From positions 1 to 36,417 of the forward strand of contig CAIRGO010000132.1 in NCBI GenBank assembly GCA_903878115.1: a stretch of 36,417 bases of DNA. Direction: 5' to 3'. This document shows, piece after piece, positions 2,681 to 23,092 of this stretch. Positions within the stretch are counted from its first letter, which is position 1. Each line of letters opens with the position of its first letter. The translations under genes and the position numbers were made by a program. This DNA is from Akkermansiaceae bacterium. GTDB taxonomy: Bacteria > Verrucomicrobiota > Verrucomicrobiia > Verrucomicrobiales > Akkermansiaceae. Below the pieces are notes generated by a model. That model was not told the origin of the DNA. It made no database searches and saw nothing but the letters and a program-made list of their open reading frames with translations.

Positions 2681-3862
2681 ATGCGCCTAATTGCCACTCT
2701 ATTCTGCTGTGCTGCGCTCGGCGCGGAAGAAGTGGACACGATGGTTCTTATTCCTAAGGAGCAAGTGACTGCTCAAGCAGTGCAAGCATCGATCACCCGC
2801 GGGGTGGATTATTTGATCCAGAAACAAAACAAAAATGGATCGTGGGGCGGACCTACCAGAACAAAAGGATTGAACATCTACGCGCCATTGCCCGGTGCTC
2901 ATGATGCGTTTCTCGCAGGCGCCAGTGGTCTTGCTCTGGCAGGTTTGATTGATGCCCATGATCCACGACCAGAAGCAGAGCAGGCCATCAATAAAGGCCA
3001 GCAATGGATGGCGGAGAAACTCCCTAAGCTAAGACGCGCCGATGTCACCACTACTTACAATGCGTGGGGTCATGCCTATGGCCTACGGGCTCTCACAAGA
3101 CTCTACCAACGCGCAGCCAATGACCCAGCCCAACAATCGGTCATTAAAATTCTGGCCCAAGAACAAGTGGATCTCGCGAACCGTTATGAAGACTTGAATG
3201 GTGGTTGGGGATACCTCGATGTTTTCGATGAGATTCGCACCCAGATCCCTAGCGGTATCACCACCTCGTTCACCTCCGCGACAGTATTGCTCGCGATGCA
3301 TGAAGCTCGGGAAGTGATGGGCGTGACACTGAAGCAAAAAGCCATTGATTCCACTCTGGCATCAATTCGCCAACAACGTTTCCCAGACTTTACCTATGCC
3401 TACTCCTACGGTCATCACATGCATCCAGAAGGAGTGATCAATCGTCGCAATGGTTCACTCGCTCGCTCACAAGCATGCAATGCCATACTACGTGCCTTTG
3501 GTGATGAAAAAGTTACCGATGCCGTTTTATCCACGTGGGGAGATAACTTTATTGAGTTTGAGAAATGGTTAGATCACGGCCGCAAAAAGCCAGTCCCTCA
3601 TGAATCCACTTTCAAAATTTCGGGTTATTTCTATTACTACGGTGTGTATTACTTTACCGAATCGGCAAAATTTTTGCCAATCGAAAAACAACGTGAACTC
3701 GCCAAAGGTCTAGCGCGTATTATTCTTACCCGACAAGAGAAAGACGGATCTTGGTGGGATTACCCACTCTACGATTACCATCAACCGTACGGCACTGGTT
3801 ATTCGCTGATGGCACTCAAGTGGTGCCGCTCGGTGATGTCTCCTGCCGCTGCGAGCAACTAA
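2681..3862 (+). CDS. Secreted alpha/alpha-toroid protein, squalene-cyclase-like repeats
   Basis: A 393-residue protein starting with a short signal peptide (MRLIATLFCCAALGA). Repeats of the terpene cyclase/prenyltransferase toroid are visible: GVDYLIQKQNKNGSWGG near the start, a LNGGWGYLD segment mid-way, and ILTRQEKDGSWWDYP near the end. These carry the QxxxGSW-type signature of squalene-hopene cyclase repeats. I do not see a DxDD protonation motif, so it is unlikely to be an active hopene cyclase, and the signal peptide puts it outside the cytoplasm. Similar exported toroid proteins are common in planctomycetes and verrucomicrobia, with unknown function. A GTG at 2666 overlapping the previous stop is an alternative start. 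It is probably cotranscribed with the adaptor upstream. Confidence 0.75.
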   Translation: MRLIATLFCCAALGAEEVDTMVLIPKEQVTAQAVQASITRGVDYLIQKQNKNGSWGGPTRTKGLNIYAPLPGAHDAFLAGASGLALAGLIDAHDPRPEAEQAINKGQQWMAEKLPKLRRADVTTTYNAWGHAYGLRALTRLYQRAANDPAQQSVIKILAQEQVDLANRYEDLNGGWGYLDVFDEIRTQIPSGITTSFTSATVLLAMHEAREVMGVTLKQKAIDSTLASIRQQRFPDFTYAYSYGHHMHPEGVINRRNGSLARSQACNAILRAFGDEKVTDAVLSTWGDNFIEFEKWLDHGRKKPVPHESTFKISGYFYYYGVYYFTESAKFLPIEKQRELAKGLARIILTRQEKDGSWWDYPLYDYHQPYGTGYSLMALKWCRSVMSPAAASN

Positions 3863-3887
3863 GTTTCCTTAACTGCAGCATTTTCTG

Positions 3888-4601
3888 ATGATTGTATTGT
3901 TCGATTTTGATGGCACCATTCTTCCATGGGATACGCAGAAACTTTTCTGCCATCACGTGCTGCGCGCATACCCCTGGCGACGGATGTTTTTGCTCGCCTA
4001 TTTGCCACTGCTGCCATTTGCGAGTATTTTAGGGTCAGAAGGATTGAAGCGCGTATTTCTCTCGTTTCTATGGCGCTTGCCCGATGAAGAAGTGGCACGA
4101 CTCGCAAAAGGCTTTGCAGAAGCATGGATTCCCAGCAGAGCATGGCCTGAAATGCTGGCCACCATTCGCCGACATCGTCATGCTGGTGACTACCTCATCT
4201 TAGTATCCGCCAGTCCTGAAATCTATGTGAAAGAAGTCGGGCGCATCCTTGGATTTGATCTAAGCCTCGGCACAGAAATGGGGCTAGTAGATCATCAACG
4301 ATTGCTATTTCCTGATCTCATCAATAATAAAGGGCATAACAAAGTGGAGCGATTGCGCAAAGTACTAGATTCATCGTACTTTAACAAATCTGGTCAAATC
4401 ACCAATGCTCACGGCTATACAGATAGTTGTGCTGATTTGCCGATGTTAACTCTTTGCCAGACCGCGACAGTGATCAATCCCAACAAAAAGCTTCTTGCGA
4501 TTGCCGAATCAAACCAATGGGAAGTGCGCTACTACCCGCGGCCATGGAAGAACACATTGCATCGCTACCTGATGCGTGCCAAATATGTGTTAGGCCTCTG
4601 A
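3888..4601 (+). CDS. HAD-superfamily IB phosphatase (SerB-like)
   Basis: A 237-residue cytoplasmic protein with the full HAD motif set: DFDGTIL at residues 6-12 (nucleophile Asp and general acid Asp), VSASPE as motif II, KVERL-type lysine region as motif III, and YTDSCADLPML as the magnesium-binding motif IV. The long helical cap between motifs I and II is typical of subfamily IB, the group of phosphoserine phosphatase-like enzymes. Substrate cannot be told; phosphoserine, phospholipid-type and small phosphometabolite phosphatases share this pattern. It lies 25 bases after the toroid gene, probably the last gene of that series. Its 3' end overlaps by 12 bases the end of the convergent transporter/peptidase gene. 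Confidence 0.85.
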   Translation: MIVLFDFDGTILPWDTQKLFCHHVLRAYPWRRMFLLAYLPLLPFASILGSEGLKRVFLSFLWRLPDEEVARLAKGFAEAWIPSRAWPEMLATIRRHRHAGDYLILVSASPEIYVKEVGRILGFDLSLGTEMGLVDHQRLLFPDLINNKGHNKVERLRKVLDSSYFNKSGQITNAHGYTDSCADLPMLTLCQTATVINPNKKLLAIAESNQWEVRYYPRPWKNTLHRYLMRAKYVLGL

Positions 4602-6791
4602 GCGGTAGTCAAGTAACACCGCCGTGATCGCTTGCTGATTTGCCAGATGCACTCGTATTTCCGTGATGCCACGCTTAGCTTGTAGTTTACTATTGATGCT
4701 CCATGCACCGTTACGCGGCAATTGTTTTTCTGTGCCATCTAGCACCGCCAATACCGTCAAAACATCTGTCGTCGCACTCATGCGGTAACGATAATCGACT
4801 TTGTATAAGCCCCTAAATGGTTCAATCACCTCTTTCAACCAACGCTGCGGCGAAGGTTGATACGGCAATGAACTCACCACATCGTTCCAGTTCACGGCAT
4901 CACCATCAACACAAGGAACTCGCGCAATGCCGGCAGCCATCCATGAAAGAATGCTGCGATGGTCGCCACTAAAATCAATCGCGTAAAATACACCATCCGA
5001 AACAAAAGCCGTCAATCGTGCATCGGTCAGAGAAGAAACAAACCGATAACGACCATTTTCGTCAAAATCCATCGTTACTGTTTCCTCCTGTACATCACCA
5101 TGTTGATCCGTTATTTGATAGCGATACAATCCCGGAAGCCAATGGTAAAAAATTTCGCTCCACAGTGGCAAGGGTAAGACAGATTCAACTACACTCTGCT
5201 CTTCCGGTATGCCCGATGTGAGAAACTGCTGTTTCTTTCCGTTCTCTGATGTTAGCGAAAAATGCTTCAGGCAAAACGCACGTGTCGGCGACCCCAAGGA
5301 AGCAGTTGACTGAATCTGCATATGCAAATGCGGCACTGGTGAGCGACCACTATTGCCAACCTCACCAATGAAGGTTCCCACCAAAACCCGCTGACCTAAC
5401 GAAACCGCGACCGTGCCTTTTTTGAAATGCGCCAGCATCACGGTATAACCTATATCACTTTTGATCATCACATAGTTACCCCAATTTTCGTCTGGATTAT
5501 TGCCACCAGGAGTATTGTCCACCACGTGATTGACTACCGCAGTAATCCACCCATTGCAGGGGGCAAGAACCGCAGTGCCGAAGCTATAAAAATCTTCGAG
5601 ATTGATTCCTTGGCCAACATATTTTTGCCCATCCACTTCGGTTTCAAAATCTAACGCATATCTCCATGCGCCACGGTGAGTGAGTGGTCCAGAAAACGCT
5701 TGAGTCACCGTTCTTTTGCCCACGAATGGCAAATACAAACCAGGCATGGCAAGATGCGGAAAACGCTTTTTATCTAACAATATCTTTTGCGCCGCTGACT
5801 CGGGAAGCATGCCAGGCGCGGGCGATGGCACCAAGGAACCCGCCGTGCGTCGCTGGCGCAGCGCATAGACGGTGCCTAAGACTACCACATTATAAGGCAA
5901 TGCACTTACCGGCAAACGAAAGGTACCTAACAGAACAGAAAGCGCTATTGCCATGAAGGCGCACATCGTAGAACCTGCACAGACTAACAGAACACTTGAT
6001 TTCGAAGTGATGTAATACCCTGCGCCGAGGGCAATGCCGCACAGCAGAAAATTAAAACTACACCACGCCATCGAACTAGGTTCTATTGCATAGCCAAACA
6101 TCGATAAGGTAAAAACTCCCACAGAAATCGAGATCGTCGCCATGGTGGTACTCAGGGGTGAGACCATCATCAATGAAAGAAAGACCAACACGCCAGGAAG
6201 TGCGTGGGCCTGAAAAATCATCGCTCCAAAAGCTTGGAAAATCACCCGTACCATCGCAGGCAGCATCGGTAATTCTAACCACGAGGGAGTAGAGGACGCT
6301 ATGGTATAGGGCAATCCATACGCCAACATCACCGAGAGACTAACCACATAAGATGTCAGCACCGCTGGAATACTGTGAGCTGATAATCCCCATTGCGACG
6401 ACATCCATGTTTGCAAGGTCACCGTGATGAAAAAACCACCTACTATGGACGTAGTAAAATACAGCAACAGCATGCCTGCGGAAAAATGGTAATTTTGATG
6501 CAAGTAGGCGATGGAAAACGAGATCAGCAAGGAATTAAACAGCAAAAAACCATTGCGAATATTGGTGCGATCATAACCCAGCCACCAAGCCAGCAAGGCC
6601 GTGCTGAGAGCACCAAACAGTCCTATGCTACCGATGATTGGCGTAAACATGCTTATCGCCAATAACATCCAACCTAAGCGCGGATTGTTAGAAAAAAACA
6701 ATACTGCATAAGCACGTGGAATCCCGTGCATGAGAACATTTCCTAACGGAATGTTCTCATGAGGAGTATCATGATCTGCAATCGGAATCAT
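4590..6791 (-). CDS. Urea-transporter-like membrane domain fused to M23 peptidase
   Basis: A 733-residue, three-part protein. Residues 1-310 are hydrophobic with about ten membrane segments and match the urea transporter (UT) family, including the IRNGFLLFNS stretch (the I/L-RNGLxGFN signature of UT half repeats). Residues 350-500 are an M23 (lysostaphin-type) zinc endopeptidase domain: HRGAWRYALDF gives His372 and Asp381, and PHLHMQIQ gives the His488-x-His490 pair. Residues 510-733 form a beta-rich domain I do not recognise. The peptidase half should face the periplasm and cut peptidoglycan or peptide cross-links; that is family-based. It is the last gene of a five-gene operon, 16 bases after the decarboxylase. 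All expected zinc ligands are present. Whether the membrane half still moves urea is unknown. Confidence 0.8.
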   Translation of the reverse strand: MIPIADHDTPHENIPLGNVLMHGIPRAYAVLFFSNNPRLGWMLLAISMFTPIIGSIGLFGALSTALLAWWLGYDRTNIRNGFLLFNSLLISFSIAYLHQNYHFSAGMLLLYFTTSIVGGFFITVTLQTWMSSQWGLSAHSIPAVLTSYVVSLSVMLAYGLPYTIASSTPSWLELPMLPAMVRVIFQAFGAMIFQAHALPGVLVFLSLMMVSPLSTTMATISISVGVFTLSMFGYAIEPSSMAWCSFNFLLCGIALGAGYYITSKSSVLLVCAGSTMCAFMAIALSVLLGTFRLPVSALPYNVVVLGTVYALRQRRTAGSLVPSPAPGMLPESAAQKILLDKKRFPHLAMPGLYLPFVGKRTVTQAFSGPLTHRGAWRYALDFETEVDGQKYVGQGINLEDFYSFGTAVLAPCNGWITAVVNHVVDNTPGGNNPDENWGNYVMIKSDIGYTVMLAHFKKGTVAVSLGQRVLVGTFIGEVGNSGRSPVPHLHMQIQSTASLGSPTRAFCLKHFSLTSENGKKQQFLTSGIPEEQSVVESVLPLPLWSEIFYHWLPGLYRYQITDQHGDVQEETVTMDFDENGRYRFVSSLTDARLTAFVSDGVFYAIDFSGDHRSILSWMAAGIARVPCVDGDAVNWNDVVSSLPYQPSPQRWLKEVIEPFRGLYKVDYRYRMSATTDVLTVLAVLDGTEKQLPRNGAWSINSKLQAKRGITEIRVHLANQQAITAVLLDYRSEA

Positions 6792-6807
6792 AAAGTTACA
6801 ATAGATT

Positions 6808-8223
6808 TTAAGCCAAATGCGAAGGCACCAATTCTAGCTCTTGAACGTAAGACAAATCCTCGCGTTTTTTAATCACATGCACCTGTTGGTCTTCGCCGAT
6901 CAGCACCACCGCTGGGCGGTAAGTGATAAACTGCATCGATTGCGTGACGTTATAGGCACCCACTGGATGCATCACCACGCGGTCGCCAGTGGTCAACGAT
7001 GGCAATGGCGCTTCTTCGCGAATGACATCAATATTCATGCACAAACAACCATAAACTGTAGTCGCTGTGGGAGCATCCAAACAAGGGCGAGCAGGTAAAA
7101 TCCGTGGCTGATACCATGTCGCCGTATAAAGCAAATTCACGCCCGCATCCAAGACTAACGCATTTTTGCTGCTGGCCGCAATTGTCACTGCGCCACCACC
7201 TTTGCCATAGGCCGACATCGCGGTATGGATGGTGCTTGCTTCGGTATGACGTTTTTTCACCGCCACTACGCTGGAGATTAAATAACCCGCATCGTCCACC
7301 AATGCTCGTCCTGTTTCTAGATAGAGTTTGGGCAATGTCCGCCCCGCTGGCCAGAGCTGCGTGATCGTATCACAGATCGCCTCGGCATAACGATCTAACG
7401 AGGGCGTAGAATGCTCTGCCGCTAAGTACTGCAAATGCAATCGCGCATGAGAAGCAAATCCTCCACCCATGTTCAAATAGCGAATCGGCGGTGCACCCAG
7501 CGATTCTGCTTCAAGCGCGAGCCCGACCATTTTTTTCGCGGCGATGCGATAGAAGTCAGGCTCCAAGATAAATGTCCCGATGTGACAATGAAGCCCCTGC
7601 AAACGCAACTGCGGGGTGGCAATAATACGTCGTACTACTTGCATCACTTCACCATTGTCACCATTGAATCCAAACTTCGACCACACAGTATGATCACCGG
7701 TGCTGAGAAAGACGCGCAGTGCGATGGCTACTGGTTCACTTCTCCCTTTCGCTAAATTGGTGATCGTCAGCAACTCATCCAAGTTATCAACCTGAATCAT
7801 CGCCTGCTCATCAATCGCGCGTTGCAGTTCGTGCAGTTGTTTATACGGACCATTAAAAATAATCTGATTCCCAGGAATGCCATTGCCGCGCGCTTTTTCA
7901 TATTCAAATCCAGAAACAACTTCAGCAATGGAACCTTCTTGATGAAATACATGGCAAATCGCATTCAAATAATTTGTTTTGTACGACCACGCGAACTGCA
8001 CATCAGGATAACGACGACTAAAGGCTCGATGCGCTTCACGATATTTTTCGCGCAAGGCTTTTTCGGAAAATACAAACAAAGGGCTACCAAAATCATTGGC
8101 TAACGATTCTACGGAAACTCCATCAATCTCCGAGCAACTGGGAGAAGTTCCTAGACGAAACGGATTGACCGGACCCGCATTCAAGCGTTGCACAGTAGGA
8201 CGTGTGTAGGGAAGTCGTGACAT
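6808..8223 (-). CDS. Group III PLP-dependent decarboxylase (DapDC/ODC-like)
   Basis: A 471-residue enzyme of the alanine-racemase-fold decarboxylases, a family that includes diaminopimelate, ornithine, arginine and carboxynorspermidine decarboxylases. PLP lysine is in FAWSYKTNYL (Lys82); other marks are the HCHIGT strand, NMGGGF phosphate loop, ETGRALV (E-x-GR) and a CLCMNID segment where the active-site Cys and Asp of the family sit. I chose the ATG at 8223, 4 bases after the previous stop; an in-frame start at 8265 would overlap that gene. Its place between an ATP-grasp ligase and an M23 membrane peptidase, away from lysine genes, argues against housekeeping LysA. Substrate is unknown; a basic amino acid or diaminopimelate-type compound is the natural guess. 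Confidence 0.8.
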   Translation of the reverse strand: MSRLPYTRPTVQRLNAGPVNPFRLGTSPSCSEIDGVSVESLANDFGSPLFVFSEKALREKYREAHRAFSRRYPDVQFAWSYKTNYLNAICHVFHQEGSIAEVVSGFEYEKARGNGIPGNQIIFNGPYKQLHELQRAIDEQAMIQVDNLDELLTITNLAKGRSEPVAIALRVFLSTGDHTVWSKFGFNGDNGEVMQVVRRIIATPQLRLQGLHCHIGTFILEPDFYRIAAKKMVGLALEAESLGAPPIRYLNMGGGFASHARLHLQYLAAEHSTPSLDRYAEAICDTITQLWPAGRTLPKLYLETGRALVDDAGYLISSVVAVKKRHTEASTIHTAMSAYGKGGGAVTIAASSKNALVLDAGVNLLYTATWYQPRILPARPCLDAPTATTVYGCLCMNIDVIREEAPLPSLTTGDRVVMHPVGAYNVTQSMQFITYRPAVVLIGEDQQVHVIKKREDLSYVQELELVPSHLA

Positions 8224-8227
8224 AAAA

Positions 8228-9301
8228 TTAAATGAGTTGTTTTTTGTTAGATGAAAAATCCGCACTGGTTGCTAGCTCAGCAAGTTGATTGATGTGACCT
8301 AACACTTCAATCTGGTGCCGCACATAAAAATGCCCCGCTGGGCATGGCGGAAGTTTGATCGAAATGTTGTCATCGATCATGATCCTAATTAGCGCAGAGG
8401 CGAAATTGACACCAAATTGAGCCGGAAAATCCACCCATGCAGGGAATCGTGGATTGATTTCGATCAACGAATACTTTTGATCTGCTTCATCTAACATTAC
8501 TTCTACTTCAAATGGACCGCGCCATTTTAGTGCGGCAATGAGTTTCTCGCACATCGCCTGCAATGCGCTGTCGTGAATCGTGATCGCGCCACTGCCTTTG
8601 CCTTTTTCACTGATGATCGTTTTGCGGATGCAGCACAGTCCGATGATGCCACCTAGGCCGTCACCGATGCCCATGGCGTTGAATTCGCCCCCGCTGATGC
8701 ATTCTTGAATGATCGCTGGCGCACCCCATTCCGCAAGAAGTTTATTCATCGCCGCAATCAACTCATGGTCATTGAAAACTTTTTTGGCATCGTAGTATTG
8801 TCCTTTAACCATCACCGGATATCCAAACTCACGCGCTGCTTGCACGGCAGTGGCGGTGTCATAGACTGCTTCTGTTAGAGGGACTTTTAACTCGCATGCT
8901 TTGACAAGTGATTCCAGATGATTTTTTGCACGACGGTGCAAGGATTCCATTTCTGGCAAAAATGTTTTCCAGCCGTTTTTCGTGAGACGGTCTTCGACAT
9001 AAACTAACAACTCAATCTCCGCATCCAATGTCGGAAGAAAATAATCAAATGGCGACAGCGCATGAATTTCCTCCAAACGTTGCAAGTACAAATCTGCCCC
9101 TGCACTCGGGTATGGCATGGTATAAACCACATCTGGTCCACCTTCGACATAGATGCCACTCTCTAACGCATCATACACTAGCCCTACGATAAATGCGTTT
9201 GGATAGGAGCGTCGAATGCTACGAATGATGCTCGCGCCTGGTTGCGGATTATCGCCGCGGTGCAGACCGCTCACGGCGATGCGTAATGGTTCTTGATTCA
9301 T
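8228..9301 (-). CDS. ATP-grasp ligase (carbamoyl-phosphate-synthase-like)
   Basis: A 357-residue protein. The N-terminal third is a pre-ATP-grasp Rossmann-like domain (IAVSGLHRG, then IVGLVYDALESG). The rest is an ATP-grasp fold: GYPVMVKGQYYDAKKV supplies an ATP-binding lysine, IIQECISGGEFNAMGIGD the glycine-rich region, and FEVEVMLDEADQKYSLIEIN the metal-binding Glu/Asn strand (IEINPRFPAW). Stand-alone ligases of this type form amide or peptide bonds through acyl-phosphate intermediates. The ATG at 9301 overlaps the stop of the PqqD-like gene as ATGA, a sign of translational coupling; the start at 9310 is less convincing. Likely works directly with the PqqD-like protein and the decarboxylase; substrates cannot be read from sequence. 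Confidence 0.82.
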   Translation of the reverse strand: MNQEPLRIAVSGLHRGDNPQPGASIIRSIRRSYPNAFIVGLVYDALESGIYVEGGPDVVYTMPYPSAGADLYLQRLEEIHALSPFDYFLPTLDAEIELLVYVEDRLTKNGWKTFLPEMESLHRRAKNHLESLVKACELKVPLTEAVYDTATAVQAAREFGYPVMVKGQYYDAKKVFNDHELIAAMNKLLAEWGAPAIIQECISGGEFNAMGIGDGLGGIIGLCCIRKTIISEKGKGSGAITIHDSALQAMCEKLIAALKWRGPFEVEVMLDEADQKYSLIEINPRFPAWVDFPAQFGVNFASALIRIMIDDNISIKLPPCPAGHFYVRHQIEVLGHINQLAELATSADFSSNKKQLI

Positions 9302-9540
9302 GCTTTCCATCCGATGGTTTCTAGTTCGTCAAAAAATCCTTCAAGATCACGACGTGCGGTGTTTTCATCCACTTCGTATTTTTCCTGCATCGCCTCAAGA
9401 ATTTGTGCCTCGGTCATGCCAGTTTGCAACATTTTCACCAACACTAATCCAGTGGTGTTCAGTTGATACGTCTCACCGCGCACCGGATCAAAGGCGAAAC
9501 CACGGTCATTGAGCAACAAATCAGATAATTGTGTTTTCAT
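9298..9540 (-). CDS. PqqD-like peptide-binding protein
   Basis: An 80-residue protein of the PqqD type. It shows the family pattern of FDPVRGETYQLNTTG, then a helix, then a C-terminal winged-helix-like half ending DLEGFFDELETIGWKA. PqqD and its relatives (RiPP recognition elements) bind a precursor peptide and present it to a modifying enzyme. No radical SAM partner is present here; instead the stop codon overlaps the start of an ATP-grasp ligase, which suggests the ligase is its partner. I looked for a short precursor gene upstream, in and around 10259-10580, and found none that is convincing. The peptide or small molecule it binds may be encoded elsewhere. Confidence 0.8.
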   Translation of the reverse strand: MKTQLSDLLLNDRGFAFDPVRGETYQLNTTGLVLVKMLQTGMTEAQILEAMQEKYEVDENTARRDLEGFFDELETIGWKA

Positions 9541-9553
9541 TACGAGTGGTTGT

Positions 9554-10258
9554 TTATTTTGCTTTTTTGCCCGCTAACAAATCATAGCCTTCTTGGGCAT
9601 ATTGATACGTTGGTTGCAATGCGAGGATTTTGCTAAACCCTTGCATGGCTTCACGTTTGTTACCGACATAAAAATCGGACCACGCCGCACCACTCATCGC
9701 ATCAATGTCATCGGGATAGAAGGAAAGAATTCGTTTATACATCGACAAAGATTTGCGATAGTCCCTAGTTGCATAAGCCTGCGCCGCCAGCACCATGGAT
9801 GCACGATAGTTACTGGGAACAAGTCGCACCAATCCTTCTGCAGCTCGTTTGATTTTCACCTCGTCTTTCACACCCTGCGCCACATCAAGCAGACCGATCG
9901 CACAATTGATCGATGATGGTTCAATTTTTTGCGCCGCGAGATACGTCTCCTCTGCTTTGATGTAATCATTTTTCAGATACGATAGCCATGCGTAGCGAAT
10001 CAAACTAAGAAATTTGTCGCCATCGGTTTTTTGATACATGACCAAATTTTTGATTGCTTCATCGTATTCTTTGTTAGTTTCCGCAGTCTTCGATGCCTCC
10101 CAATATTCAGCACTCGTTTTGGTCGGTTTTTCTTCTGGCTTTTGCGGTTCTGCAACGCCCGTAAGCATCAACAATCCAGGCAAGATAAGCGGGATCGAAC
10201 GACGAAGCCAAACAACAGGTGAGAACAAATGCGCGAGGGTTGTGTTTTTATTTTTCAT
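9554..10258 (-). CDS. Exported or membrane-anchored TPR protein
   Basis: A 234-residue protein starting at the ATG at 10258. An in-frame GTG at 10300 and ATG at 10294 would add a polar extension before the hydrophobic segment. Residues 15-30 are hydrophobic (SIPLILPGLLMLTGVA) and act as a signal peptide or anchor, followed by a Pro/Glu/Lys-rich linker. From about residue 50 the rest is tetratricopeptide repeats, with recognisable helices such as AEETYLAAQKIEP, SLSMYKRILSFYPDD and AMQGFSKILALQPT. It is the first gene of the operon, 13 bases before the PqqD-like gene. A periplasmic scaffold role for the downstream membrane peptidase is plausible but is inference. Confidence 0.78.
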   Translation of the reverse strand: MKNKNTTLAHLFSPVVWLRRSIPLILPGLLMLTGVAEPQKPEEKPTKTSAEYWEASKTAETNKEYDEAIKNLVMYQKTDGDKFLSLIRYAWLSYLKNDYIKAEETYLAAQKIEPSSINCAIGLLDVAQGVKDEVKIKRAAEGLVRLVPSNYRASMVLAAQAYATRDYRKSLSMYKRILSFYPDDIDAMSGAAWSDFYVGNKREAMQGFSKILALQPTYQYAQEGYDLLAGKKAK

Positions 10259-10325
10259 ATCGGTAGTGCTTGCGTTACGAGTGAAGTAAACCATCCCCAC
10301 GTAAAGATATGATGTGAATAATGAT

Positions 10326-10361
10326 TTTTTTTGTAAAGAGTTTGTTAAGCTTATGGCTTCT
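10326..10361 (+). repeat. Imperfect direct repeat, copy A
   Basis: Starts with a T run, then GTAAAGAGTTTGTTAAG and ATGGCTTCT. It matches the copy at 10546-10581 at about 30 of 36 positions by hand alignment. The copies are 220 bases apart. Confidence 0.6.
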
Positions 10362-10383
10362 ATGAAAGACCGCTCGCAGCCCT

Positions 10384-10392
10384 TGTTATAAT
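10384..10392 (+). promoter_or_regulatory. Extended -10 promoter element
   Basis: TGTTATAAT is a perfect extended -10 sequence (TGnTATAAT). No good -35 hexamer lies 17 bases upstream, which extended -10 promoters can tolerate. It points right into a gene-free interval, so a transcript would be non-coding or antisense to the gene at 10581-11345. Confidence 0.4.
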
Positions 10393-10398
10393 GACGGC

Positions 10399-10552
10399 AT
10401 CACAATTTGTGAAAATGATGCTATGCATTTGAATGCGTTTTCGCAGTAACCGGAATTTTGAGTGGTGGAATTCTTTTTCTCTAAAAACGCACCAAAGGTG
10501 CAAGCGCTCCAGAGCCTCATGGACGTGCTATGGGAAGACTGTGAGTTTTTTT
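10399..10552 (+). ncRNA. Possible small structured RNA
   Basis: Tentative. It lies downstream of an extended -10 box. Perfect 7-base arms GCGTTTT (10435-10441) and AAAACGC (10484-10490) enclose a second pair GAATT/AATTC, and an immediately following hairpin GCACC-AAA-GGTGC lies at 10489-10501. A run of seven T ends the region at 10546-10552, although no strong GC-rich stem sits right before it. I recognise no known RNA family. Confidence 0.25.
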
Positions 10553-10581
10553 GTAGAGAGTTTGATAAGATGATGGCCTCT
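10546..10581 (+). repeat. Imperfect direct repeat, copy B
   Basis: Starts with seven T residues, then GTAGAGAGTTTGATAAG and ATGGCCTCT. It reaches the last base of the stop codon of the neighbouring minus-strand gene. The partner copy is at 10326-10361. Confidence 0.6.
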
Positions 10582-11345
10582 CAAACACTCAACAGAAACT
10601 GATCTTCGTTCTTCAACTCACCGATCAAGCGCATGCGATAGACGTGCTTGGCGGGGTCGATGAATCCTTGCGATAGACCCGCTTGTGAGAACACCACTGC
10701 ATTCCCATCCGATTCTTCCCAGTGTAGCAATGCTCTGCCGCCTGGGTTCACACATTGCGCATATAAGTTGTGATCAAACTCTTCTTTTTCATGCACTTCT
10801 CCATCGTGAATATGGACCGTAGGAAAATACAAACGATCAGCAAGTCGAGTAGGAAAAGTCATCGCCATGGGATGAATTTTTTGCCGTCCTAGTTTGAACT
10901 TGAATACGGCAAAGCCATAATCTTTATAAATGCCTATTTTTTCCAACGCTCCTTCTGGCAAACGAAAGCGCTGATCCAGACGAGAAAAATCTGCCATCTG
11001 CGGCACAAATGATGCCTCAAAGGAACCCACTTGATGCACTTTGAGTTCGCCCAGCGGAGCGGGTGCCGGACCACCAAATGGATCAGCACCCGAATCGCTT
11101 CTAGTAAAACCTCTATCGAGCGATGAGAAAAAATTTGGGAACTTACTTAGGTCGATAAATTTAACCGCATCTTCTGCCGAGCCGATAACCACAGGCAAGG
11201 GTAACACCATCGCCACCTCGGTAGGCGTATCAACATTCATCGCGTACACCAAACCTTGTCGCGCGGCAGCCACCATACGAGCAAAAATTCGTGTATTGCT
11301 GACCTCACTCACTTTTCCCGAAAACATGCACATGACAATGCCCAT
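10581..11345 (-). CDS. Conserved-looking protein of unknown function
   Basis: A 254-residue protein that I cannot assign. It has no signal peptide or membrane segment and begins MGIVMCMFSGKVSEVSNTRI; an in-frame TTG at 11354 is an alternative start. The N-terminal part has a long regular alpha/beta pattern (ARMVAAARQGLVYAMNV, then VAMVLPLPVV). A Pro/Gly-rich linker follows (DPFGGPAPAPLG), and the C-terminal half is rich in aromatic and charged residues with a histidine cluster (FPTVHIHDGEVHEKEEFDH). The histidines could bind metal, but that is a guess. It is transcribed alone, and its stop overlaps repeat copy B. It is likely real because of its length, codon use and protein-like composition. 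Confidence 0.6.
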   Translation of the reverse strand: MGIVMCMFSGKVSEVSNTRIFARMVAAARQGLVYAMNVDTPTEVAMVLPLPVVIGSAEDAVKFIDLSKFPNFFSSLDRGFTRSDSGADPFGGPAPAPLGELKVHQVGSFEASFVPQMADFSRLDQRFRLPEGALEKIGIYKDYGFAVFKFKLGRQKIHPMAMTFPTRLADRLYFPTVHIHDGEVHEKEEFDHNLYAQCVNPGGRALLHWEESDGNAVVFSQAGLSQGFIDPAKHVYRMRLIGELKNEDQFLLSV

Positions 11346-11469
11346 ATTAGTCAAAATTTCTGAGTTGTCATGACAATAACAGCGCTGGTCAATGGATCAG
11401 ATCAATTTTCATTGGCTCCGCCACGGGATGTTTGATTGACGTATGGTAACGTATCGATAGCATCAGGGA

Positions 11470-12528
11470 ATGAATGCAGCCTATCGACAATTACTTCTGG
11501 TTACGGGAGTTTGTCTAGGATTGTCGTCTTTTTCATCGGCGGATGAGCCGAAAGATTGGCGCACCGAATTACTGGCAGCAGAGAAAATCCCCACCGATAC
11601 GGATTCGCTCAAAGCATTGAGTCAGAAGTTTCATCTCTCTAGTGATCAATTTGAAAATGCAGTGCAGCGGCTGAGTGCAGACCAATTCGCCAAGCGTCAA
11701 CAAGCGCAAAGTGAGATGTTACTGATGGGCCGGGATGTGTTGCCGCTGATCCGCAAATTGCCTGATTCAGGCAGTCCTGAAGTGCGAGGCCGGCTTGCGG
11801 AAATTGTGCGGATTCTAGAAACGAACGACCGCTGTAGCAAAGATGAAATGTTGCGTTTGGCCGTGACTGGGTTGCTGCAACAGCGGGAAAATCCCAATGC
11901 GGTGCACGAATCTCAAAAAATGTTTGTCGAGATGTTTTCTGAACCCGCTGGGTCGCTGACAAAGGGCTATCGACGCATGAATTTTGTGGCATCGCCAGGC
12001 AAGGACGGCAAGGTGGAAAATGGCATGGCCCAGTTTTGGGGAAGTAAAAATCAGGACGAAGGAGACCAGCGATTGGTGCTGGATGCGAAGTCCGTCACTG
12101 GTGAAGCCGAGTTTCCAAAAAAGTTTCACATCGAGGTCAAAATTAGTGGACTAGCCGGAGGCGAGGGAGCCTATCATGTGGGGGTTTCTGTGGGCAATGT
12201 GCGCGCTCTATTTCATCCTGGATTTACCGATGGCGGCTTTCGTATCGAACGAGTGGACAATCATCAAGTCTTAGTCCCTAACATGAACATGGGGTTTGAT
12301 CCACCAGTGGATAAGTTGCTGCGCATGCAAGTGAAGGTCGAACGACTAAACAACTTGCAAGCAAAAATGGAGGTAGTGATCATCAGTGGCAAAGATCAAT
12401 TTCACAACAGTGCGACACTGCGCCTAAGTGATGTAGGAAAGTTCGACAAGATCAGCCTCGATCGCAGTGGTAGGACAGGCGGCGATGCCATCTTTGATGA
12501 TCTACTGGTCGATTTTTCTGGCAACTAG
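11470..12528 (+). CDS. Secreted protein of unknown function, jelly-roll-like C-terminus
   Basis: A 352-residue exported protein with a signal peptide (MNAAYRQLLLVTGVCLGLSS ending near SSADEP). Residues 30-150 are helical and look like a HEAT-type segment (KRQQAQSEMLLMGRDVLPLI, then SPEVRGRLAEIVRIL). Residues 170-350 are beta-rich with a closing FDDLLVDF strand, as in the concanavalin/LamG-like domains that planctomycetes and verrucomicrobia attach to secreted proteins. The biochemical role is unknown; carbohydrate or surface binding is a guess. It is monocistronic, convergent with alanine racemase 32 bases downstream. Confidence 0.6.
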   Translation: MNAAYRQLLLVTGVCLGLSSFSSADEPKDWRTELLAAEKIPTDTDSLKALSQKFHLSSDQFENAVQRLSADQFAKRQQAQSEMLLMGRDVLPLIRKLPDSGSPEVRGRLAEIVRILETNDRCSKDEMLRLAVTGLLQQRENPNAVHESQKMFVEMFSEPAGSLTKGYRRMNFVASPGKDGKVENGMAQFWGSKNQDEGDQRLVLDAKSVTGEAEFPKKFHIEVKISGLAGGEGAYHVGVSVGNVRALFHPGFTDGGFRIERVDNHQVLVPNMNMGFDPPVDKLLRMQVKVERLNNLQAKMEVVIISGKDQFHNSATLRLSDVGKFDKISLDRSGRTGGDAIFDDLLVDFSGN

Positions 12529-12560
12529 ATATTGGCAATAAAATCATCACGCCGACGAAT

Positions 12561-13688
12561 TTATCCATCAATGTAGATCCGCGAGACGCGTGGTGTGATG
12601 CCGGTAAAAATATGCCACGGGATGGTATCGGCTTTTGCCGCGACTTCGCTAACGGGAATGTGCGGCCCGAAGAGTTCTACTTCATCACCTTCGCAGACAT
12701 CGGCGGCATCGGTGACATCGATCATCATTTGATCCATGGTAACACGACCGAGGATAGGAAAATATTTTCCTCTCACAAAAACCCGTGCTGCATGACCTGA
12801 TACGTGACGTGGATAACCATCACCGTAACCGATGCCAATGGTGGCAACAACAGTAGGACGTTGCGTAACAAATTCCCTGCCGTAAGAAACACCATGTCCT
12901 GCGGGCAATTCACGGATCAAAGTGACACGTGATTTCAGGCTCATCACGGTGCGCAATTTTTTCTGAAACTCTGGCAACGGTGATACTCCGTATAACATCA
13001 GCCCCGGTCGCGATAGATTACATTCTAACGGATCATAACCTAACAACCCTGCACTATTCGCCAAATGCCGCCACTTGAATGCCGCAGGACCTCCGAGATC
13101 ATCGATGATTTTTGCAAAACGCAGGAATTGTTTTTTGGTAAATTCTTCATCTTCATCAGCCGACGGTAAATGCGAGCCGATGCCCTCTACTTCCAGCCCC
13201 GTGAAGGTGCGCAGCGTGGCAAGAACTTCTGGTAAATGATCTGCCACAAAACCACCGCGACCCATCCCGGTATCGACGGCTAGGTGCACGCGCAAGCATT
13301 TCCCCTGCTCACGGGCAATCTGATCAAACGAGCGTGCTTCGGCTATCGATGAAATACAGGGCGTCCAGTCATGTTCGACAATCTCTCTCCGCTCTTCCGA
13401 CCATGTAGCGCCTAACAAATAAATCCGTATCGTGATGCCTGCGCGATGAATCCGCCGCGCTTCACCCACATTCGCAACGCCGAGAAAGGTCACACCTTGC
13501 TTGGCGAAAATCGCAGCGATGTCCTCTAATCCATGGCCATAGGCACCCGCTTTGACCACTGCCATCATTGCAATATTGGGCCAAACTTCATGGGCCACAC
13601 GCAAATTATGTTGCAATGCTGAGGTGTTAATTTCCGCCCAAGCGCGTGGTGGCGAGATCGATTCTGTGGGTTCCACGTGTGTGATCAT
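12561..13688 (-). CDS. alr: Alanine racemase
   Basis: A 375-residue PLP enzyme that converts L-alanine to D-alanine for peptidoglycan. The PLP lysine lies in AVVKAGAYGHG (Lys46), the second catalytic residue is the tyrosine in HGVSYGREF, and GIGYGDGYPR and the RPGLMLYG stretch match the family closely. Length is normal (about 360-375). It has a hydrophilic N-terminus and no signal peptide, so it is cytoplasmic. The glycoside hydrolase gene ends 30 bases upstream on the same strand, so the two may be cotranscribed, although no functional link is evident. Confidence 0.95.
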   Translation of the reverse strand: MITHVEPTESISPPRAWAEINTSALQHNLRVAHEVWPNIAMMAVVKAGAYGHGLEDIAAIFAKQGVTFLGVANVGEARRIHRAGITIRIYLLGATWSEERREIVEHDWTPCISSIAEARSFDQIAREQGKCLRVHLAVDTGMGRGGFVADHLPEVLATLRTFTGLEVEGIGSHLPSADEDEEFTKKQFLRFAKIIDDLGGPAAFKWRHLANSAGLLGYDPLECNLSRPGLMLYGVSPLPEFQKKLRTVMSLKSRVTLIRELPAGHGVSYGREFVTQRPTVVATIGIGYGDGYPRHVSGHAARVFVRGKYFPILGRVTMDQMMIDVTDAADVCEGDEVELFGPHIPVSEVAAKADTIPWHIFTGITPRVSRIYIDG

Positions 13689-22436: not shown

Positions 22437-22487
22437 TTCAAAGAATCATGCTCTACCGCACTCATTATGCTATTCATTTTTCAAGAT

Positions 22488-22508
22488 GCGGACTAAAGTC
22501 CGCGCTCC
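22488..22508 (-). repeat. REP-like palindrome 2
   Basis: Reverse-complement copy of REP 1, ending in CGCTCC just 2 bases before the transposase ATG at 22511. Confidence 0.85.
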
Positions 22509-22510
22509 AC

Positions 22511-23092
22511 ATGAACAAGGGAATCTATAATCGTGGATACCTGCCACACTGGGATTTTCCTCGTGCTCTGCAAGTGGTAAATTTTCGACTAGCGGATTCC
22601 GTGCCCGCATCGGTGATTGAGAATTGGAAGAAGGAATTAGAAAAGATCACTGACGATGATGAACGTCATCGTCAACTGCATCGGAATATAGCTCATTATG
22701 AAGATGTTGGTTATGGCTCGGCCATTTTTCGTGACACGAGATGCGCTGAAATTGTTAAAGACGAACTGCTCAGACACGCGGGCAGTATGTATCAACTTCA
22801 TGCATGGTGTGTGATGCCGAATCATGTGCATGTATTGACGATGCTTTCCGAGCATCAAGTCCTGTCTGATGTCGTGAAACAATGGAAAGGTGCAACGTCG
22901 ATCAAGTTGAACCGCCTACTCGGGCAATCGGGCCGCTTGTGGCAGCCAGATTATTATGATCGCTATGTTCGTGATATGGATCACTTCTACAACTGCCGCA
23001 GTTATATCCGCAACAATCCGGTGAAAGCTGAGCTGTGTGAAAGACCAGAAGATTGGCAATATTCCTCAGCTGGGATGGAGCGCGGACTTTAG
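22511..23092 (+). CDS. REP-associated tyrosine transposase (RAYT, Y1 family)
   Basis: A 193-residue HUH nuclease-type transposase. The metal-binding pair is in MPNHVHVLT (His105 and His107). The C-terminal SYIRNNPVKAELCE motif is characteristic of RAYTs and holds the expected catalytic tyrosine, and RPEDWQYSS matches the usual ending. RAYTs are single-copy domesticated relatives of IS200/IS605 transposases that nick REP palindromes. The ATG at 22511 comes right after REP 2; an upstream in-frame start at 22448 would translate the REP and was rejected. The final codons ATG GAG CGC GGA CTT TAG are part of REP 3, so the gene and its repeat overlap. No intact insertion sequence ends are needed for this call. 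Confidence 0.92.
   Translation: MNKGIYNRGYLPHWDFPRALQVVNFRLADSVPASVIENWKKELEKITDDDERHRQLHRNIAHYEDVGYGSAIFRDTRCAEIVKDELLRHAGSMYQLHAWCVMPNHVHVLTMLSEHQVLSDVVKQWKGATSIKLNRLLGQSGRLWQPDYYDRYVRDMDHFYNCRSYIRNNPVKAELCERPEDWQYSSAGMERGL

Follow-up and report, generated by a model that had tools for sequence, protein, structure and literature searches.

A five-gene operon in an Akkermansiaceae genome

The 36,417-nucleotide stretch of DNA analyzed here (called the window below; contig CAIRGO010000132.1 of GenBank assembly GCA_903878115.1, from an Akkermansiaceae bacterium) carries an operon of five frames that run nearly gapless on the minus strand from position 10258 down to 4590; all of the operon features given below are on that strand. 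The first gene here encodes a 234 amino acid (AA) tetratricopeptide repeat (TPR) protein (9554..10258; Pfam TPR_2, 35.6 bits, over the cut-off), whose N-terminus was judged by eye to have a hydrophobic, signal-like stretch, so it is probably exported. The other four encode an 80 AA PqqD-like protein (9298..9540; PF05402, 52.3 bits, over the cut-off) with the character of a discrete RRE (the recognition element for leaders of ribosomally synthesized and post-translationally modified peptides, or RiPPs), a predicted amide ligase of the ATP-grasp fold and the carbamoyl-phosphate-synthase/L-amino-acid-ligase type (8228..9310, with its start at 9310 or 9301; CPSase_L_D2, 29.4 bits), a 471 AA pyridoxal phosphate (PLP) decarboxylase of the alanine-racemase fold (6808..8223; Orn_Arg_deC_N, 104.8 bits, and Orn_DAP_Arg_deC, 42.8 bits), and a 733 AA membrane fusion of a transporter with an M23 peptidase (4590..6791; UT, 119.8 bits, and Peptidase_M23, 50.7 bits); these Pfam matches, too, are over their cut-offs. 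The gaps between these genes are 13, -4, 4 and 16 bases, where the -4 is an ATGA overlap that holds if ATP-grasp starts at 9301; with the upstream ATG at 9310 the PqqD/ATP-grasp gap becomes -13. An earlier note, made from the letters of this DNA, had described just such a five-gene minus-strand operon, and coordinates, frames and Pfam matches agree with it; the part that it called a transporter is a urea-transporter (UT) fold, and we refer to the fusion as UT-M23. Within this genome the window holds both the only PqqD-domain match and the only match to the UT-M23 protein, apart from a separate half-length UT match on contig C317.

Conservation and linkage of the cassette

Species genomes were scanned with the ATP-grasp alignment alone, which gave at least 570 relatives, and the best 80 loci were kept; with one contig from a viral collection (L122) and five loci from the window's own phylum they make up a set of 86, from which four loci with an ATP-grasp gene and no cassette (L038-L041) and one variant (L037) were left out. 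PqqD and ATP-grasp are each present in 85 of these loci and the decarboxylase in 84; UT-M23 was found in 76, the TPR family in 61. The complete core (PqqD, ATP-grasp, decarboxylase and UT-M23) occurs in 75 of the 86, and every one of these 75 has its genes in identical order on one strand, with median gaps of -4 bases for PqqD/ATP-grasp (84 pairs), 14 for ATP-grasp/decarboxylase (83 pairs) and 11 for decarboxylase/UT-M23 (76 pairs). The single ATP-grasp miss (L114) is masked there, the misses of PqqD (L089) and of the decarboxylase (L073, L094) are at contig ends, and eight of the ten loci without a scored UT-M23 end within 2.5 kb of ATP-grasp (L114 within the decarboxylase; L093 has a stub). 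The TPR gene leads the operon in the window and lies 3' of UT-M23 in 52 of the 60 loci that have both; residues R88, Y106 and P182 of its product are invariant in 62/62 rows. The 86 loci are labelled as coming from 11 phyla (Bacteroidota, Chlorobiota, Ignavibacteriota, Cloacimonadota, Myxococcota, Pseudomonadota, Caldifarciminota, Aquificota, Armatimonadota, Planctomycetota and Verrucomicrobiota), labels that come mostly from metagenome bins, so that individual ones may be wrong. Named carriers among them are Chthoniobacter flavus Ellin428 and Prolixibacter bellariivorans (L042, L074).

Closer to home, five of the 387 genomes of the window's phylum (own genome included) hold, besides the window, full-length ATP-grasp relatives (E <=6.1e-49, 33-37% identity), and all five share the window's gene order with four or five genes recognized (in L034 PqqD was seen only by the family profile). 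Two further genomes of the phylum, L172 and L173, also hold the cassette. The reverse test, confined to this phylum and scored on two UT-M23 candidates and at most five ATP-grasp candidates per genome, found full-length UT-M23 (>560 bits) in six of the 387 genomes and the six strongest ATP-grasps (>400 bits) in the same six; the nine other UT-M23 matches reach at most 181 bits and cover the UT part or the M23 part alone, and the next-best ATP-grasp belongs to the L037 genome, which gives no UT-M23 match at E 1e-20.

Comparison of these loci shows that the PqqD-like RRE, the ATP-grasp protein, the decarboxylase (FigC-like, see below) and UT-M23 are inherited together in fixed order, with TPR in most copies. 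That the genes merely happen to be neighbors might be argued from the 56 close relatives, none of which has a comparable, cassette-type ATP-grasp (11 gave partial, weak matches with E >=1.8e-9 and 23-32% identity), but with the order kept in 75 of 86 loci across 11 labelled phyla, and with exact co-occurrence in the 387 genomes, a fortuitous arrangement has next to no probability. The earlier note's idea of a single unit, which it proposed to check by the co-occurrence of the PqqD-like, ATP-grasp and decarboxylase genes and would have given up had they been unlinked in relatives, is borne out: the four core genes are linked in 75/86 loci, and within the phylum ATP-grasp and full-length UT-M23 occur in the same six genomes. 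No description of such a cassette was found in the searched literature, which covers few subscription-journal papers, and it is apparently an undescribed one that is widely shared among bacteria. Its five proteins match no PADLOC family at E 0.001, and an anti-phage defence system was dropped as a candidate on that account. Searches of plasmid records by tblastn gave only two ATP-grasp matches, both below 30% identity, and the 20 UT-M23 matches listed of 32 align to the M23 part only.

Several observations on single lineages may be recorded here. Contig L122, from IMG/VR, has PqqD-like, ATP-grasp and decarboxylase genes (3444-5922) without UT-M23 on a contig with a family A DNA polymerase, and this copy of the cassette is possibly phage-borne. 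Four loci (L034, L035, L036, L173) have upstream of PqqD a Ser/Thr kinase with a TPR tail (Pfam for L035, the others by eye), and L035 and L036 also have a small FHA-like frame there (by eye), which suggests phospho-regulation of the cassette in this lineage. On contig C317 (L176) of the window's own genome, positions 4965-7576 hold a phenylacetate-CoA ligase-related gene (424 AA, under the cut-offs) that overlaps with a gene for a UT-TPR-UT protein (446 AA). In L045, L051, L056 and L057 both have homologues shortly downstream of the cassette, in L050 and L052-L054 only UT-TPR does; the C317 pair is a possible unlinked partner module of the cassette. Within the window the next gene downstream of the operon is a HAD gene on the opposite strand (3888-4601), which overlaps the UT-M23 stop by 12 bases. 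Beyond it, also on the other strand and 2-4 kb past the operon, lie a gene for a protein like the periplasmic adaptors of resistance-nodulation-division (RND) pumps (1215-2669; TIGR01730, 64.3 bits, under the cut-off) and a spermidine-synthase-like gene (492-1214, by eye) without shown link to the operon; an IS200-like Y1 transposase gene, of the REP-associated type by eye, is at 22448-23092.

A leader-like tail on the decarboxylase and the pocket of the PqqD-like protein

The PqqD-like family profile, when compared with solved chains, matches the lasso peptide B1 RREs TfuB1 (1.5e-13) and TbiB1 (2.5e-12), its nearest solved relatives, far better than PqqD of pyrroloquinoline quinone (PQQ) synthesis (0.0017). 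PQQ biosynthesis was rejected as the function of the cluster, since the PqqD chains score so far below the lasso RREs and since Pfam and NCBIfam scans find no radical SAM domain in the five proteins; among the NCBIfam matches of the PqqD-like protein no PQQ-named model is present. The protein does match TIGR04353 (HPr-rel-A, PqqD_rel_X) with 36.9 bits at a cut-off of 35, and no HPr-kinase-like partner is among the five genes; the recurrent neighbors were inspected by eye only.

The motif recognized by discrete lasso RREs is [Y/W]xxPx[L/V/I/F/A], and in the solved RRE-leader complexes LppB D70 bonds the motif Tyr and PbaB1 Q79 and E75 bond the motif Trp; the pocket is lined or divided by a Phe four residues further on (LppB F74, PbaB1 F83), and the motif Pro is held in place by LppB N33, which lies 37 positions ahead of D70 (PMC13381572). 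D65, F69 and N28 of the PqqD-like protein have the spacing of these pocket residues (LppB D70/F74/N33, PbaB1 Q79/F83). F69 is kept in 80 and N28 in 69 of 86 rows, and position 65 is D in 51, N in 13, Y in 9, S in 7 and E in 3, with others in the rest. The Asp65 codon is at 9346..9348 in the window, and both the spacing and a HMMER alignment to TfuB1 point to Asp65 as the predicted partner of a Tyr in the decarboxylase.

That Tyr belongs to an N-terminal tail (AAs 1-25, 8149..8223) in which YTRPTV, residues 6-11 (8191..8208), is a YxxPx[I/L/V] element and the predicted RRE-binding site. The form [YFWL]xxPx[ILV] opens 83 of 85 cassette decarboxylases, the two exceptions being L114, with masked letters, and L122, with YNRQTV at that place. 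Its first residue is Y in 61 of the 83 rows, F in 17, W in 4 and L in 1; the Pro is present in all 83, and the last position is I in 73, L in 7 and V in 3 (the L056 tail, for example, reads YSPPTI). Variation from YxxP to LxxP has been reported (PMC12710340). Past the motif a basic residue follows two positions on in 73/83, and there is a conserved GxxNKFG stretch, often recognizable by its NKFG, with G at position 11 in 68/83 and K at 15 in 61/83. The alignment with FigC starts after the tail, and six of seven rows of LysA, the diaminopimelate (DAP) decarboxylase, have no such motif in their first 45 residues (the seventh, L137, has a chance match upstream of its likely start). A stricter motif occurs in the first 40 residues of 66 cassette decarboxylases and, among 14,551 frames checked, of 91 others; one of these 91 is in fact the decarboxylase of the window with a start further upstream.

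Tail and pocket vary together. The 82 rows with ATP-grasp, PqqD and a readable tail fall into two classes: Y or W tails go with D, N or E at PqqD position 65 in 64/64, and F or L tails with Y, S, A or G in 18/18. On a tree built from two other cassette proteins, tail residue 1 and PqqD position 65 each change class five times, and every time both do so on one and the same of the 162 branches (hypergeometric p 1.1e-9, a guide only, as it weighs all 162 branches alike; an earlier, less favorable count is weighed below), and these five coincident switches include two at single tips in opposite directions (L032, L093). By mutual information with the tail, position 65 ranks first of the 80 PqqD positions, with 0.76, while the runner-up has 0.33. 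Three loci that are not in the table fit the pattern: L172 has Tyr with D, L173 has Phe with Y, and L037 has YEKPMV in a separate frame with D. The tail motif, the kinship with lasso RREs and the covariation together make direct binding of the RRE to the tail a strongly supported prediction, in which the YxxPx[I/V/L] tail at the decarboxylase N-terminus would be held by the RRE the way a leader is held by a lasso RRE. By sequence and covariation the PqqD-like protein has what is expected of a leader-recognizing protein of a RiPP cluster, and it probably docks the decarboxylase beside the ligase.

The same leader-type motif and RRE could also be cited for a true RiPP or scaffold-peptide pathway, with the decarboxylase tail or some unlinked peptide as a precursor that ligase and decarboxylase modify and M23 cuts. 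The second conserved stretch after the leader (the G11 and K15 counted above) and the free motif-bearing frame of the variant L037 (below) speak for it too. Consuming the N-terminus of an enzyme as substrate would be costly, however, and the window (NPFR) and the Prosthecobacter-type rows lack the NKFG. Nor does a stand-alone short frame recur beside the cassette: the 87 loci compared have 971 small frames up to 3 kb from the core, counting those that overlap larger genes by 30% or less, and these include no convincing family in three or more loci; looser clustering settings yield one three-locus group of unlike frames. The only candidate for a ribosomal precursor encoded with the cluster is in the variant L037, which has at 7456-12582 PqqD, two ATP-grasps and a tail-less decarboxylase, followed by a RaSEA-like radical SAM gene (just under the cut-off). 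Between its two ATP-grasp genes a free 70 AA frame carries YEKPMV; it is one of three frames with the loose motif on that strand and the sole one that fills an inter-gene gap, and L037 looks like a RiPP-type relative. For the cassette itself we regard a RiPP pathway as improbable. The earlier note had pictured a separate peptide held and modified on the PqqD-like protein and had suggested looking for a conserved short frame beside the cluster; this part of its model is not supported, as no convincing family of short frames recurs within those 3 kb and it is the decarboxylase N-terminus that has the leader-like element and covaries with the PqqD pocket.

Enzymes, membrane fusion and the proposed pathway

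The AlphaFold model of the ATP-grasp protein (mean pLDDT 92.4) is closest among solved folds to 2pn1 (carbamoyl-phosphate-synthase-like, rank 1), carbamoyl phosphate synthetases, biotin carboxylases and the L-amino acid ligases 3vot and 4wd3, and its nucleotide/metal-type residues K169, E268, E270, E284 and N286 are present in 86/86 rows; fold and residues are those of a carboxylate-amine ligase, and this activity is predicted. The decarboxylase family profile, set against solved structures, prefers FigC/FslC (7kh2, 326 bits) to the best DAP decarboxylase (238 bits) and to BtrK (169 bits). Residues K82, C395, M396, I398 and D399 are invariant in 82/82 rows. FigC has a Met (Met355) directly after its catalytic Cys354, in the place where other members have an acid for gripping the side-chain amine (PMC7857480), and the cassette enzymes have the same Cys-Met pair, C395-M396, in 82/82 rows. 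In the 7kh2 alignment, whose chain numbers are 19 above the paper's, T327 and Y331 of the FigC specificity helix correspond to cassette T367 and Y371, and T330 to W370. FigC residues H357 and R387, which bind citrate, are replaced by I398 and Q428 (both in 82/82 rows), so that citrate is not likely to be the acyl group; the substrate likely has an acylated side chain, and a citryl one is unlikely.

These comparisons also bear on a cell-wall or lysine pathway, that is, a DAP decarboxylase paralogue working with an M23 endopeptidase on peptidoglycan peptides, for which one might cite the M23 fold with its intact zinc site and the fact that LysA is the best-scoring NCBIfam model for the window decarboxylase. 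That score is far under the cut-off (215.9 against 297.9 bits), the active-site loop reads CMNID where LysA has CESGD (Cys-Glu-Ser-Gly-Asp), the M23 domain is predicted to be cytoplasmic (below), and the genome has its own separate LysA, 27% identical to the window decarboxylase over the matched part. A FastTree tree of the decarboxylases puts the 82 cassette rows on one side and the 7 LysA rows on the other. A LysA paralogue was rejected on these grounds, and the cell-wall pathway as a whole seems to us very improbable. The earlier note had allowed that its scheme would fail if the decarboxylase grouped with housekeeping LysA; by identity and signature it does not, and in chemical terms the best reading is still an amide ligase with a decarboxylase acting after it.

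The last core gene has an AlphaFold model with pLDDT 91.8 and pTM 0.88. Residues 4-346 match whole UT structures (human, zebrafish and bovine; 310-327 aligned residues, Z 36.2-36.7), and Pfam, profile and model agree on a complete urea-transporter fold at about AAs 8-342 (5766..6770). Residues of about 349-527 (5211..5747) match the M23 entries EnpA, LytM and Csd1-Csd2 (Z 14.4-14.6) and form an M23/LytM metallopeptidase domain whose zinc/catalytic residues H372, D381, H455, H488 and H490 are intact in 72/72 rows. If helices 16-30 and 179-190 are taken to stay out of the membrane there are ten crossings, and the excess of K+R over D+E is +0.4 to +1.0 in the loops expected inside and +3.2 after the last helix (6.6 K+R per sequence in the post-UT segment), with the outside loops negative except 290-297. 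The canonical UT orientation has both termini inside. Loop charges and a complete UT fold in this orientation predict that the M23 domain is on the cytoplasmic side, and for the same reasons the trimming of a product at the envelope that the earlier note had suggested is unlikely.

Genes near the cassette in other loci give hints of metal regulation and of export, although the window has none of these genes. In 28 of the 86 loci UT-M23 is directly followed by a member of a family of about 445 AAs, TPR at its start and then barrel-like by eye (of eight such proteins compared with NCBIfam, five have no match and three match TPR models only). Seventeen Bacteroidota/Chlorobiota loci have an AraC regulator near PqqD, with an N-terminal domain that resembles metal-binding ones, at 12 to 285 bases in 13 loci, at 175 bases on the other strand in L080, and farther off in three. 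Six of the 86 loci have RND pumps no more than 2.6 kb from the core. These neighbors would suit a metallophore pathway, in which ATP-grasp replaces the NIS synthetase of rhizoferrin synthesis, a FigC-like decarboxylase finishes an acylated diamine, and the product is exported for metals. FigC is after all the best solved relative of the decarboxylase, the FigC clade tends to specialized metabolites such as siderophores (PMC7857480), and TIGR00003 (copper ion binding protein) has a match, at 3e-5 and under the cut-off, to the AraC regulator of L100. On the other side, just 6 of the 17 regulators have a CxxC-like motif, the RND pumps are few and the L120 pump alone is shown to be over the CusA/CzcA cut-off, the citrate-binding residues are not kept, and neither a siderophore receptor nor an NIS synthetase is among the recurrent neighbor families, although no search was aimed at them. 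We consider a metallophore an unlikely product, if slightly less so than a RiPP.

Instead we favor, with a probability of roughly 0.6, a conserved biosynthetic cassette in which the RRE docks the leader-tagged decarboxylase and a small product is made inside the cell, released and passed out. The RRE would grip the decarboxylase tail, the "leader" tagging a pathway enzyme instead of a precursor peptide, and docking would place the decarboxylase next to the ligase (the RRE and ligase genes overlap). The ATP-grasp ligase would form an amide on an amino-acid side chain (or on a small acyl donor), and the decarboxylase would then strip this acylated amino acid of its alpha-carboxylate. The M23 domain, situated at the membrane's inner face, would cut a peptide or amide bond and so free the product; the UT channel would let this small product out, and periplasmic and outer-membrane partners might pass it on. 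The docking function, the amide-then-decarboxylate chemistry, the cytoplasmic cutting and the export are what we infer from sequence and model comparisons; most likely the cassette makes a small amide or amine on the inner face that is sent out through the UT channel.

Several points weigh against this proposal. Neither the membrane fusion nor the TPR protein is strictly obligatory, because UT-M23 was not found in L096 and L122 despite 6.5 and 6.0 kb, respectively, past ATP-grasp, and the TPR family was not recognized in 25 of 86 loci. The first covariation count, in which Trp was placed with Phe and L056 was mis-read, gave 8 tail and 5 PqqD changes with 4 coincident (p 1.2e-5), and Trp was regrouped with Tyr after that count, on the basis of published Trp hydrogen bonds. 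The window decarboxylase alone scores higher with NCBIfam LysA (215.9 bits, as above) than with FslC NF041039 (205.9 bits, cut-off 500); our preference for FigC comes from the family profile against solved structures and not from these scores, and the replaced citrate-binding residues count on the same side. As to the membrane protein, loop 290-297, expected outside, is faintly positive (+0.2), the UT-M23 model weakly matches LolA, a periplasmic fold (E 6e-5, a mild objection), and to our knowledge M23 domains are otherwise exported.

RRE domains serve to find RiPP clusters. The cassette proposed here is RRE-guided biosynthesis without a conventional precursor, and if the proposal is true, an enzyme-binding RRE would explain PqqD-like genes that have no precursor, and genome miners could seek leader tails on enzymes. 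Fusing a cytoplasmic M23 domain to a urea-type channel would couple release and export in an unusual way. More tentatively, and with rather less confidence than we place in the cassette itself, RREs may also have a role outside RiPPs in gripping leader tails on metabolic enzymes, and the decarboxylase-RRE-ligase assembly on the cytoplasmic side of the channel-peptidase may be one envelope-spanning machine, present in many phyla, in which a small amide is made, cut and exported.

Parallels to parts of the cassette exist in several known systems. Scaffold-peptide (PEARL) pathways use leader recognition to build a small product that is released by a peptidase, the same logic as that proposed here; unlike them, the cassette has no tRNA-dependent ligase recognized among its five genes, and no free scaffold peptide was found in it. 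The butirosin Btr pathway has an acyl carrier protein where the cassette has an RRE, and is not known to have a transporter-peptidase fusion. It does share with the cassette (BtrI/BtrJ/BtrK) an ATP-grasp protein of the same broad clade (PMC4431377) and a related decarboxylase, the BtrK of 169 bits above, which acts on a carrier-bound amino acid (PMC7857480). Rhizoferrin synthesis by FigA/FigC (FslA/FslC) likewise has an amide synthetase and, after it, a decarboxylase of the alanine-racemase fold that has the Cys-Met pair and acts on an N-acylated amino acid, but the cassette has ATP-grasp in place of the NIS synthetase, is without the citrate-binding residues and adds the RRE and UT-M23. The urea transporters (dvUT, UT-A, UT-B) and the M23/LytM peptidases supply a complete UT fold and a complete M23 site, which the cassette, unlike either group, fuses in one chain with the peptidase predicted to be cytoplasmic. 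The lasso RREs (TfuB1/FusB1, TbiB1, PbaB1) and LppB, the RRE of LPP, share with the PqqD-like protein the fold family, the motif [Y/W]xxPx[L/V/I/F/A] and the Asp/Phe/Asn spacing of the pocket; the cassette differs from them in that its core genes include neither the lasso B2 protease nor the C cyclase, and in that it carries the motif on a pathway enzyme rather than on a precursor.

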